Source of the DNA: Candidatus Levybacteria bacterium RIFCSPLOWO2_12_FULL_41_12
GTDB lineage: Bacteria > Patescibacteriota > Microgenomatia > Levybacterales > UBA12049
Direction: 5' to 3'
NCBI GenBank assembly: GCA_001784155.1
Contig: MFPL01000011.1
Span: forward strand, 1-58,284
Length of the DNA: 58,284 bases
The notes beneath the pieces are model-generated. The model worked only from the letters and a program-made list of their open reading frames with translations. It did no database searches and had not been told where the DNA came from. Both the position numbers and the translations under genes were made by a program. This document shows, in pieces, positions 48,426 through 51,229 of the stretch (positions within the stretch are counted from its first letter, which is position 1; each line of letters starts with the position of its first letter).

Positions 48426-48449
48426 CCTCGAAAATTTGGTTTTGAAGCA
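48426..48449 (+). repeat. Array repeat copy 1
   Basis: cctcgaaaatttggttttgaagca; TTGGTT-17-TATAAT-6-ATG(48471). Confidence 0.85.
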
Positions 48450-48470
48450 GAAAAGAGATATAATTCAGCC

Positions 48471-49109
48471 ATGACTGAAGGCCTTAAGCATCCCGAGCAT
48501 TTATCTTTGCCTGAGCACTGGGGAGAGCACGGACCAAAAGATGACTGTGTATCAAATCCATGGGTAAGTTTGCTTGATTTATCAAAGGACGAGAGGAAAG
48601 CGTGGGAAAGGGATAGAAACCTTTTTTATAGACTTTCAAAAGCCCAAGGCGAAATATTGGCAGGAGATATTCCTTTTGCCACTTTAAGAGAGCTCCGTCC
48701 AGGTAGTGTATTCGACGCTAGTACCGTTGAGCCCGGAACAATATTAGGCATTCAAGAAGAGTTCGGAGGATTTATTCATGGCGACTTGGAATGGTACACA
48801 GACAAACAAATCTGGGGAGTGGTGTGCGAACCGAAGAGCGGAGGGGGAATAGGAAGAGCAATTGCTATTTGGGATCCTACTAAAATCGGTCCTCTGTACA
48901 TCAGCTATAGAGAACCGATTATCAATATCGGAACTACTGTACATTCCAAATACAGAGGGCCTGGTAATATTGTTTATGACACAGTAGTAAATACTAATAA
49001 AGTAAGGGTTCTTCTTCCGGGAACAACCCAGCGGCAAAATCAATCCACCGGCGGAAGATTAACACAAGGATGGCCTACTTTGAGACCTAGCCCCGTACCT
49101 ATTGACTAA
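48471..49109 (+). CDS. Array gene 2, hypothetical protein
   Basis: 212-aa frame. Confidence 0.7.
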   Translation: MTEGLKHPEHLSLPEHWGEHGPKDDCVSNPWVSLLDLSKDERKAWERDRNLFYRLSKAQGEILAGDIPFATLRELRPGSVFDASTVEPGTILGIQEEFGGFIHGDLEWYTDKQIWGVVCEPKSGGGIGRAIAIWDPTKIGPLYISYREPIINIGTTVHSKYRGPGNIVYDTVVNTNKVRVLLPGTTQRQNQSTGGRLTQGWPTLRPSPVPID

Positions 49110-49133
49110 CCTCGAAAATTTGGTTTTGAGGCC
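49110..49133 (+). repeat. Array repeat copy 2
   Basis: cctcgaaaatttggttttgaggcc; here a separate TTGATT-17-TATAAT-7-ATG follows. Confidence 0.85.
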
Positions 49134-49175
49134 TATAGTTTGATTTCGTGCATACAGTTTGTTATAATTTCCCTC

Positions 49176-49595
49176 ATGTCAGAATTTTTAAGGGCTCTGG
49201 GAGAAACCTATTATCCCAATCGCACTATTGTTGTGACCGTTGATTCTCCAGGCAGACATACTCCACTGCAAACTTATGCCATGTCTCCCGTGGAGACTAC
49301 TTTACTTGAAGCGGTGCGCGCTGAGCAGAATGGTAACAAGAACGCAGCAAGAAGATTATATTTAGAGGCCGGTTATAGAGCCCAGAATGCATTTGAGAGC
49401 GCTAGAAATCCAGTAACAGCAGTAGAGAGAAAAAGCTGGAGCCAATATGGTTTACTCGCTGTGATCTCTTTTCTTCAAGCAGGGGATAGGGAAATGGCAG
49501 TAGAGCTTGGGCAGAGACTCTCCGCAAACCCACTCGTAAGAACCGATACAAAAACTAGGATTGGAGAATTAATTGGTGTAAATCCCACAGCCTAA
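49176..49595 (+). CDS. Array gene 3, hypothetical protein, possibly TPR-like helical repeat
   Basis: Start at ATG 49176; helical AEQNGNKNAARRLYLEAGYRAQNAFESA. Confidence 0.65.
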   Translation: MSEFLRALGETYYPNRTIVVTVDSPGRHTPLQTYAMSPVETTLLEAVRAEQNGNKNAARRLYLEAGYRAQNAFESARNPVTAVERKSWSQYGLLAVISFLQAGDREMAVELGQRLSANPLVRTDTKTRIGELIGVNPTA

Positions 49596-49621
49596 CCCCC
49601 GAAAATTTGGTTTTGAAACCC
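49596..49621 (+). repeat. Array repeat copy 3
   Basis: cccccgaaaatttggttttgaaaccc; TTGGTT-17-TAAAAT-6-ATG(49642). Confidence 0.88.
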
Positions 49622-49641
49622 GCAAGTAGTAAAATGCCTCT

Positions 49642-50067
49642 ATGTCTTCAAAGACGGAAAGAGAAACAGAACAATCGGAGCATACAGAAAGAGAAGATTT
49701 AAGAACGACAGCTGAGTTCCTGGGAATTGAACCAAATGGGAGTCGAATGATAAGACTTACAGGGCTTAGAAGAGCAGAGTTAAACGCAATTTTGTTGGGC
49801 TCTCCTCAAGAATCAAGAAGAAGAGCTCATCTAGGCACATTAGGCTCTTTTTCGAGAATCTCTTCAGAAGCTCTTCAAGCAATGGGAGGTTTAGATACAA
49901 TGGGTAAAAATGGCGTGGCATGGCTTGAGCTTAGCAAAACAGAAACTAGCAGAGGAATGATGTCACCAATAGAAGCTTTATCTGATGATCAGCTTGTTTT
50001 GGAGGCTCTTGATCAGGCGAGAAATGCCCAATTATCTTTAGGTTTGCATTCTCCCAATAAACCCTAG
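49642..50067 (+). CDS. Array gene 4, hypothetical protein
   Basis: 141-aa frame. Confidence 0.65.
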   Translation: MSSKTERETEQSEHTEREDLRTTAEFLGIEPNGSRMIRLTGLRRAELNAILLGSPQESRRRAHLGTLGSFSRISSEALQAMGGLDTMGKNGVAWLELSKTETSRGMMSPIEALSDDQLVLEALDQARNAQLSLGLHSPNKP

Positions 50068-50074
50068 ACAACAG

Positions 50075-50098
50075 CCCCGAAAATTTGGTTTTGAAACC
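50075..50098 (+). repeat. Array repeat copy 4
   Basis: ccccgaaaatttggttttgaaacc; TTGGTT-17-TATAAT-6-ATG(50120). Confidence 0.9.
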
Positions 50099-50119
50099 AC
50101 GCTGTTGTATAATCCACGA

Positions 50120-50668
50120 ATGATAAATCCTGATTCTGAATTAAGGCTTTCTCAAGCACTTGTTATTGCTGGCGAGTCAGAAGAACAAAGAGCAAGAAAA
50201 CTAAAAATGGTAAGAGATTTAAGCAAGGGATTTAAAACTGTAAGCTTAATTCCTGGCGCAATAAGATTAAATTCAGTACGCGCAGTAACTAGATTTAAAG
50301 ATGACTTATTCCGAGTAACAGTTGAATTGTATCAAGAAAAAGAATGGGAAAAAATACAAAAAGATAGAGATGTTTATGGAGCATCAATTTCAAGAATATC
50401 AATCCATGATCCAATTGATGAAGCAATTGATAGAGGCTGTTGGACACTAAATAATATGCCAGAGCTCTCATACCAAAGCTTTCATCCAGAGAGAGGAGGA
50501 GAAGTGACAGAAGAAGAATTTTGGAGAAGGTATATGTCTTCAGAATTCGATCCCAGAAGAACTTTTGGATGGTCTGTTACGACTATGGCAGACTTAAGAG
50601 GAGTGGGAAATAGCGTTCACACACTTACTTGGCTTTTTATGGAACCGAGACGTACCGAACCAAAATAA
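50120..50668 (+). CDS. Array gene 5, hypothetical protein
   Basis: Start at ATG 50120 (MINPDSEL). Confidence 0.65.
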   Translation: MINPDSELRLSQALVIAGESEEQRARKLKMVRDLSKGFKTVSLIPGAIRLNSVRAVTRFKDDLFRVTVELYQEKEWEKIQKDRDVYGASISRISIHDPIDEAIDRGCWTLNNMPELSYQSFHPERGGEVTEEEFWRRYMSSEFDPRRTFGWSVTTMADLRGVGNSVHTLTWLFMEPRRTEPK

Positions 50669-50692
50669 CCCCGAAAATTTGGTTTTGGAACC
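50669..50692 (+). repeat. Array repeat copy 5
   Basis: ccccgaaaatttggttttggaacc; TTGGTT-17-TATAAT-6-ATG(50714). Confidence 0.9.
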
Positions 50693-50713
50693 TAACAATA
50701 GTATAATTTCTTC

Positions 50714-51229
50714 ATGATAATTAAGTTTTATCCCGAATCGGATAATCCAGTTTTTGAAAAAGCTGCAAGAGAATATGCAAAAATATGGCAAAAAGAAGGC
50801 GATAGAATAGTTACGGCAATAGAACAAATAAGTGGACTAAAATTTATTGAAAAATATATAAATGCGCTAAGTTATGGCGAAATTTCATATTCTCGTCCGC
50901 TACAACTTCAATCAAATATTTCTCTGCCGCACAAAAGAGGCACATTAGTTCACGAACTTTGTCATAGAATTCTTGTTGCAAACAAAATAAAATGGGAAAA
51001 ACTAAAGGGTAAAAATGCTTTTTACCTTTTATCTCATAAGCCTGTTGATTTAATTCTTTACGATATTTGGATGAAGCTTTACGGAGAAGAGTTTGCCAGG
51101 AAAGAAGTTAAGTACGAAATAAACCTATGGAACGAAAAGGATGTAAGTCCTTATAAAATTGCATGGGACTGGGCATTGGGAATGACAAAAGAGCAAAGAA
51201 CCGAAGAGTTTAAAAAATACCTAAAATAG
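50714..51229 (+). CDS. Array gene 6, putative HExxH metallopeptidase-like protein
   Basis: LVHELCHRILV (HExxH). Confidence 0.65.
   Translation: MIIKFYPESDNPVFEKAAREYAKIWQKEGDRIVTAIEQISGLKFIEKYINALSYGEISYSRPLQLQSNISLPHKRGTLVHELCHRILVANKIKWEKLKGKNAFYLLSHKPVDLILYDIWMKLYGEEFARKEVKYEINLWNEKDVSPYKIAWDWALGMTKEQRTEEFKKYLK

Follow-up and report, generated by a model that had tools for sequence, protein, structure and literature searches.

On balance, the region between holB and gyrB in the genome of Candidatus Levybacteria bacterium RIFCSPLOWO2_12_FULL_41_12 is probably a polar, cassette-like gene array, the boundary repeat of which has been secondarily co-opted as the -35 element of leaderless promoters. 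In the layout that we propose, a typical unit would consist of a -10 element, 6 nt, a start codon, an open reading frame, a stop codon and the repeat, with the TTGG(T/A)T half of the repeat serving as the -35 for the next gene. A unit landing behind any repeat with its -10 at 17 nt would complete a sigma-70-type promoter, and transcription beginning at or beside the ATG would yield a leaderless mRNA.

Organisation of the array

The window (the whole stretch of 58,284 nucleotides that was analysed) is part of an 853-kb genome made up of 12 contigs. It contains six exact copies of CGAAAATTTGGTTTTG, all on the plus strand at 48429-51620 between holB and gyrB, and no further exact copies elsewhere in the window. 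A search beyond the array showed one locus in this genome; allowing up to two mismatches gave one diverged site, on another contig, which is at the level of the controls. Table 1 lists the features of the region.

Table 1. Features of the holB-gyrB region, by position in the window.
Feature	Position	Strand	Remarks
holB (DNA polymerase III delta' subunit), left flank	47103..47753	+	Pfam PF13177, E=3e-18
Self-contained promoter, gene 1	47759..47786	+	TTGACA-16-TATTAT, 6 nt to ATG
Array gene 1	47793..48422	+	209 aa, without Pfam match; relative in G043 array
Repeat copy 1	48429..48444	+	TTGGTT 48436-48441, candidate -35
-10 TATAAT, junction 1	48459..48464	+	17 nt past TTGGTT, 6 nt to ATG 48471
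Array gene 2	48471..49109	+	212 aa, orphan
Repeat copy 2	49113..49128	+	without -10 at 17 nt
Replacement promoter	49140..49168	+	TTGATT (49140-49145)-17-TATAAT (49163-49168), 7 nt to ATG 49176
Array gene 3	49176..49595	+	139 aa; relative in G017 island
Repeat copy 3	49600..49615	+	TTGGTT 49607-49612, candidate -35
-10 TAAAAT, junction 3	49630..49635	+	17 nt past TTGGTT, 6 nt to ATG 49642
Array gene 4	49642..50067	+	141 aa, orphan
Repeat copy 4	50078..50093	+	TTGGTT 50085-50090, candidate -35
-10 TATAAT, junction 4	50108..50113	+	17 nt past TTGGTT, 6 nt to ATG 50120
Array gene 5	50120..50668	+	182 aa, orphan
Repeat copy 5	50672..50687	+	TTGGTT 50679-50684, candidate -35
-10 TATAAT, junction 5	50702..50707	+	17 nt past TTGGTT, 6 nt to ATG 50714
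Array gene 6	50714..51229	+	171 aa, HELCH (HExxH-type motif, read from translation)
Truncated repeat CCCTCGAAAATTT	51240..51252	+	followed by unrelated sequence
Self-contained promoter, gene 7	51275..51302	+	TTGACA-16-TATCAT
Array gene 7	51309..51593	+	94 aa, orphan
Terminal repeat, copy 6	51605..51620	+	TAGTAG at 17-nt position; without promoter
gyrB, right flank	51744..53846	+	Pfam PF00204, E=2e-52

The first-pass annotation of this DNA had described four junctions with the order TTGGTT, 17 nt, -10, 6 nt, ATG, and these are found at copies 1, 3, 4 and 5; the TAGTAG that it placed at the 17-nt position of the terminal repeat is likewise there. For copy 2 it was correct in reporting the loss of the -10 and the appearance of a new TTGATT-17-TATAAT, although the distance from the latter to the ATG is 7 nt rather than 6. 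The range that it gave for the array was too narrow on both sides, with array genes starting at 47793 and 51309 and the sixth repeat at 51605. Copies 2 and 6 are perfect repeats kept without a promoter. The truncated copy at 51240-51252 ends inside the core, and is what a past rearrangement might leave.

Searches of the array proteins of the window against Pfam and PHROGs gave essentially no matches, Rfam gave none at the array, and the product of gene 6 has no relative among viral contigs. The family of gene 6 is also present in the arrays of two relatives (G002 and G059) and in the islands of two more (G054 and G017); given this recurrence, it may be a near-resident gene. Over 44 nt, the leaders of the first and last array genes (47753-47796 and 51269-51312) share 84% identity, and similar TTGACA-16-TATNAT leaders follow two of the G002 repeats (locus L027, oriented positions 7488 and 7755). 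A further promoter module, complete in itself, seems to be in circulation among the arrays. At 51664, past the terminal repeat and before gyrB, lies CTTCGACAGGCTCAGGA, of which there are six copies (up to one mismatch) in 374 kb; it is perhaps a dispersed repeat family.

Spacing and conservation at the junctions

We scored a -10 as present where at least five of six positions match, including A2 and T6, and obtained the chance level from 2000 dinucleotide shuffles. In the window, four of the six repeat copies have a -10 at a spacer of 17, against a shuffle mean of 0.045, and none of the 2000 shuffles reached four. Repeats in four hold-out genomes, picked without regard to the downstream sequence, have a -10 at exactly 17 nt in 6 of 34 cases (shuffle mean 0.32; 0/2000 reached six), while each other spacer length is represented by zero to two repeats. 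A further case is the single repeat of G017, which lies directly 3' of a stop codon and reads TTGGTT-17-TATAAT-6-ATG. The four window, six hold-out and one G017 promoters form a set of 11 from six genomes; they stand before nine distinct downstream gene families, one of which is preceded by three of them (in G000, G002 and G059).

Across the 11 promoters, identity is 98% in the core, 82% at spacer positions 1-8, 41% at positions 9-14, 47% at positions 15-17, 97% in the -10 and 37% in the 6 nt after it; taken by itself, the window gives 100% in the core, 28% at spacer positions 9-14, 92% in the -10 and 25% in the next 6 nt, the -10 values in both cases being inflated by the choice of sites for having a -10 at that position. 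What is informative is that such -10 sites exist at exactly 17 nt across an almost random stretch, as a promoter predicts. Conservation of core and -10 without conservation of the inner spacer points to promoter constraint and not just to copying. Because the position and sequence of the -10 are kept across a nearly random inner spacer, we consider that the repeat very probably supplies the -35 in about 11 junctions of six genomes. The 17 nt found in these 11 junctions falls within the sigma-70-type range of 16-18 nt, and is also the commonest spacer among promoters outside the array.

As a -35, TTGGTT is weak. It matches TTGACA at three of six positions and ranks 80th or 275th of 4096 hexamers in two models built on the genome's own promoters, in which TTGACA is first. 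Outside the array, TTGG(A/T)T is not enriched at this distance: none of 38 intergenic cases, a sample with little power, stands 17 nt before a -10, compared to 9 of 57 for TTGACA. The next gene comes with a TTGAC -35 of its own, or with an extended -10, at several junctions; in G002 most repeats have a self-contained promoter downstream of them, and the junctions of other genomes with spacings other than 17 often read as extended -10 promoters. The weakness of the hexamer, its lack of use elsewhere and the presence of own promoters at other junctions together suggest that the repeat is an optional, weak -35. The TGn extension is present in 1 of the 11 repeat promoters, against 22 of the 62 background promoters (p = 0.16). 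TTGAAA inside the repeat was considered as an alternative -35 and set aside, being 11 nt from the -10 and so too close. Five AAAGTGGTATAAT-like extended -10 promoters are present in the holB-downstream island of another relative, G015 (locus L112, oriented 4438-7056).

That each unit ends with half of the promoter of the next, as had been proposed from the window, describes about 11 junctions but does not hold generally, since 30 of the 40 repeats in the five arrays are without a -10 at 17 nt. It is plausible that the repeat couples insertion to expression.

The 6 nt between -10 and ATG call for a separate reading. Genome-wide statistics, covering 374 kb of the 853 kb, show that -10 hexamers peak 6 nt before the ATG (19 of 159 genes, with 48 of 159 at 6-10 nt), and the 62 non-array promoters have a TTGA-like -35 at 17 nt and frequently TGn. 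Since 6 nt is the modal distance genome-wide, the gap that is present at the four junctions is not a property of the array. The peak suggests that leaderless mRNAs are abundant in this lineage.

The repeat as a probable unit boundary

All 40 repeats in the five arrays (up to two mismatches) lie on the strand of holB or, in G043, of gyrB, and are often a few nt past stop codons. Of the 54 genes in array intervals, 13 are on the opposite strand, and some of these are directly flanked by repeats (G043 1859-2179, 4815-5570 and 6535-6996; G059 5509-5928, oriented coordinates). This uniform polarity, maintained even beside minus-strand genes, makes the promoter function look secondary; by its anatomy, we infer, the repeat is a cassette-boundary site first.

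Repeat arrays lie next to holB in G000, G002, G055 and G059, and a further array, in G043, runs into gyrB, with the holB of that genome on another contig. The four hold-out genomes are relatives from other genera; the region is the same there, but the genes that accompany the repeat are mostly different. The gap between holB and gyrB is 56-112 nt in G008, G014, G020, G031 and G072, and other relatives have other insertions there. Among 373 genomes sampled across the class, none outside the family has more than one exact copy of the repeat, and viral contigs have no exact copy. Most array genes are without relatives, and the families that are held in common stand in another order or company from genome to genome. 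CutA, HIT and alpha/beta hydrolase genes are present in G043. In the array of that genome a non-coding module recurs between repeat pairs (locus L028, forward-locus 2281-2352, 5326-5397 and 7597-7668), 83-96% identical in the 72 nt and with a TGTATCGATACA palindrome nearby; it resembles gene-less cassettes. A 12-kb holB-gyrB island in G017 (locus L105, 667-12655) has a single repeat, and four of its gene families are shared with arrays, three different ones in all. An island with array families and almost no repeats indicates that gene exchange there may not need the repeat.

No dedicated array recombinase was found, nor any recombinase genes in the units. Xer-type genes are present in genomes with and without arrays, and a serine recombinase was rejected as the array enzyme on account of its absence from G002 and G059. 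In many relatives there is a likeness to the repeat at the 3' end of holB (47730-47753 in the window, and its counterparts; GAAAAT..TTTTT, encoding ENLFL): 41% of holB 3' ends match it at 13 or more of 20 positions, compared to 4% of other genes. It is possible that the repeat originated from this end as an attachment site. However, the holB genes are orthologues, and therefore not independent, and the window's own holB 3' end matches at a weak 9 of 20; a holB origin is only a lead. Neither an excised unit nor a strain-level insertion was seen in the data, and it is from sequence that we infer promoter activity, start sites, the role of the repeat as a recombination site and the movement of whole units.

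The null hypothesis is that an AT-rich repeat stands before TATAAT-like sequence by coincidence. In its favour are the AT-richness of the genome and the frequency of -10 hexamers ahead of ATGs; yet the shuffles, none of which reached the observed count in window or hold-out, refute chance statistically, and TTGGWT is not enriched outside the array. We give this explanation almost no credence. Better placed, if still rather unlikely, is duplication of a longer unit (repeat, spacer and -10) as a whole, such that the spacing was copied, the -35 role of TTGGTT is incidental and the -10 uses other contacts. The 82% identity of spacer positions 1-8 is in keeping with a fixed spacing that was partly inherited, some genomes have AGTAATATAAT or AGTAGTATAAT in common, and TTGGTT is weak and not used elsewhere. 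Copying of this kind sits poorly with the window, in which spacer positions 9-14 are near random (28%) in spite of 92% identity in the -10 and a length of exactly 17; moreover 10 of the 11 promoters are without TGn (p = 0.16) and so should need a -35.

Two further explanations concern the nature of the repeat. If it were an operator or activator site that overlaps the -35 region and serves a local regulon, without connection to recombination, this might account for a core conserved beyond a -35, for the A/T tract just upstream of it and for the position of the repeat beside promoters in 11 junctions. Such a site would not be expected to keep one polarity whatever the direction of the genes, to flank minus-strand genes, to occur in places with no gene start nearby, to be confined to one locus in the window genome or to lie where gene content turns over, and we regard it as improbable. 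We judge more improbable still a degenerate or divergent true integron with attC cassettes, its integrase lost or unassembled: the polar array of mostly orphan genes, the short intergenic regions, the occasional minus-strand genes and the direct repeats at the ends all fit, but none of six genomes has an IntI above the curated cut-off, there is no IntI-type neighbour, five of the six window copies show no better folding than shuffles, and the repeat is a short motif of double-stranded-DNA type.

Beyond the co-option of a boundary repeat as a -35, we raise the more doubtful suggestion that these arrays represent an undescribed integron-like system of Patescibacteria, in which the recombination site would carry the -35, each leaderless insert would come equipped with its promoter and a host recombinase would drive the process. 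Integron cassettes mostly depend on one upstream promoter, and expression tends to be poor for genes far inside an array; a junction promoter rebuilt in a few bases would, if the suggestion is true, solve this problem, while with leaderless translation no ribosome-binding site is required. The system would also illustrate how a site for gene acquisition is retained in genomes that are very small and reduced.

Comparison with known systems

Chromosomal integron arrays are likewise polar, composed mostly of genes of unknown function, punctuated by a short repeat, restricted to one locus and subject to turnover between relatives. The present arrays have the polar cassette organisation with direct repeats at the ends (40 of 40 on one strand, with differing genes). 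They differ from integrons in that neither an IntI over the cut-off nor an attC hairpin is found and in that many junctions have promoters, whereas integron cassettes are usually without promoters and rely on one Pc (PMC6557892, PMC8946536). None of the six array or related genomes has a match to IntI (TIGR02249) over the curated cut-off; weaker matches are Xer-type and lie away from the array. Set against the folding requirements of attC (PMC8946536), five of the six window copies do not exceed shuffles in folding and only copy 2 does (z = -2.1), which gives no support to the repeat as an attC-like hairpin or as a terminator. The lack of an IntI over the cut-off and of attC-like folding in five of six copies is the reason for not classing the array as an integron. 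The literature searched gave no directly relevant account of integrons or of leaderless genes in this lineage.

SCC elements at rlmH are bounded by direct repeats and sit where a conserved gene ends (3'). The array, too, lies directly downstream of a conserved gene, holB, the 3' end of which is partly repeat-like in some relatives; in contrast to SCC-type elements, no recombinase genes were found in its units and the similarity of the window's holB is weak. A promoter assembled at a junction is also known from insertion sequences: in the ends of IS256, ISCth4 and IS911-type elements, a -35 forms a promoter with a -10 joined to it by recombination (PMC7780238). Here no transposase or terminal inverted repeats were seen, nor any opposite-strand copy of the repeat (up to two mismatches), and, unlike in the hybrid and circle-junction promoters of insertion sequences, the -35 is part of a direct repeat of 16-22 bp that separates units mostly of a single gene.

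A TA signal near the start codon is a mark of leaderless, TA-led bacterial genes (PMC3160421), and leaderless promoters with the -10 next to the start codon have been described for Deinococcus-Thermus (PMC12340547). In both accounts, as here, the -10 lies about 6 nt before the ATG, and the four junctions have it within the 6-8 nt upstream of the start that is typical of leaderless genes. Compared to leaderless promoters in general, the signal is common across this genome, and what the array adds is only the shared -35.
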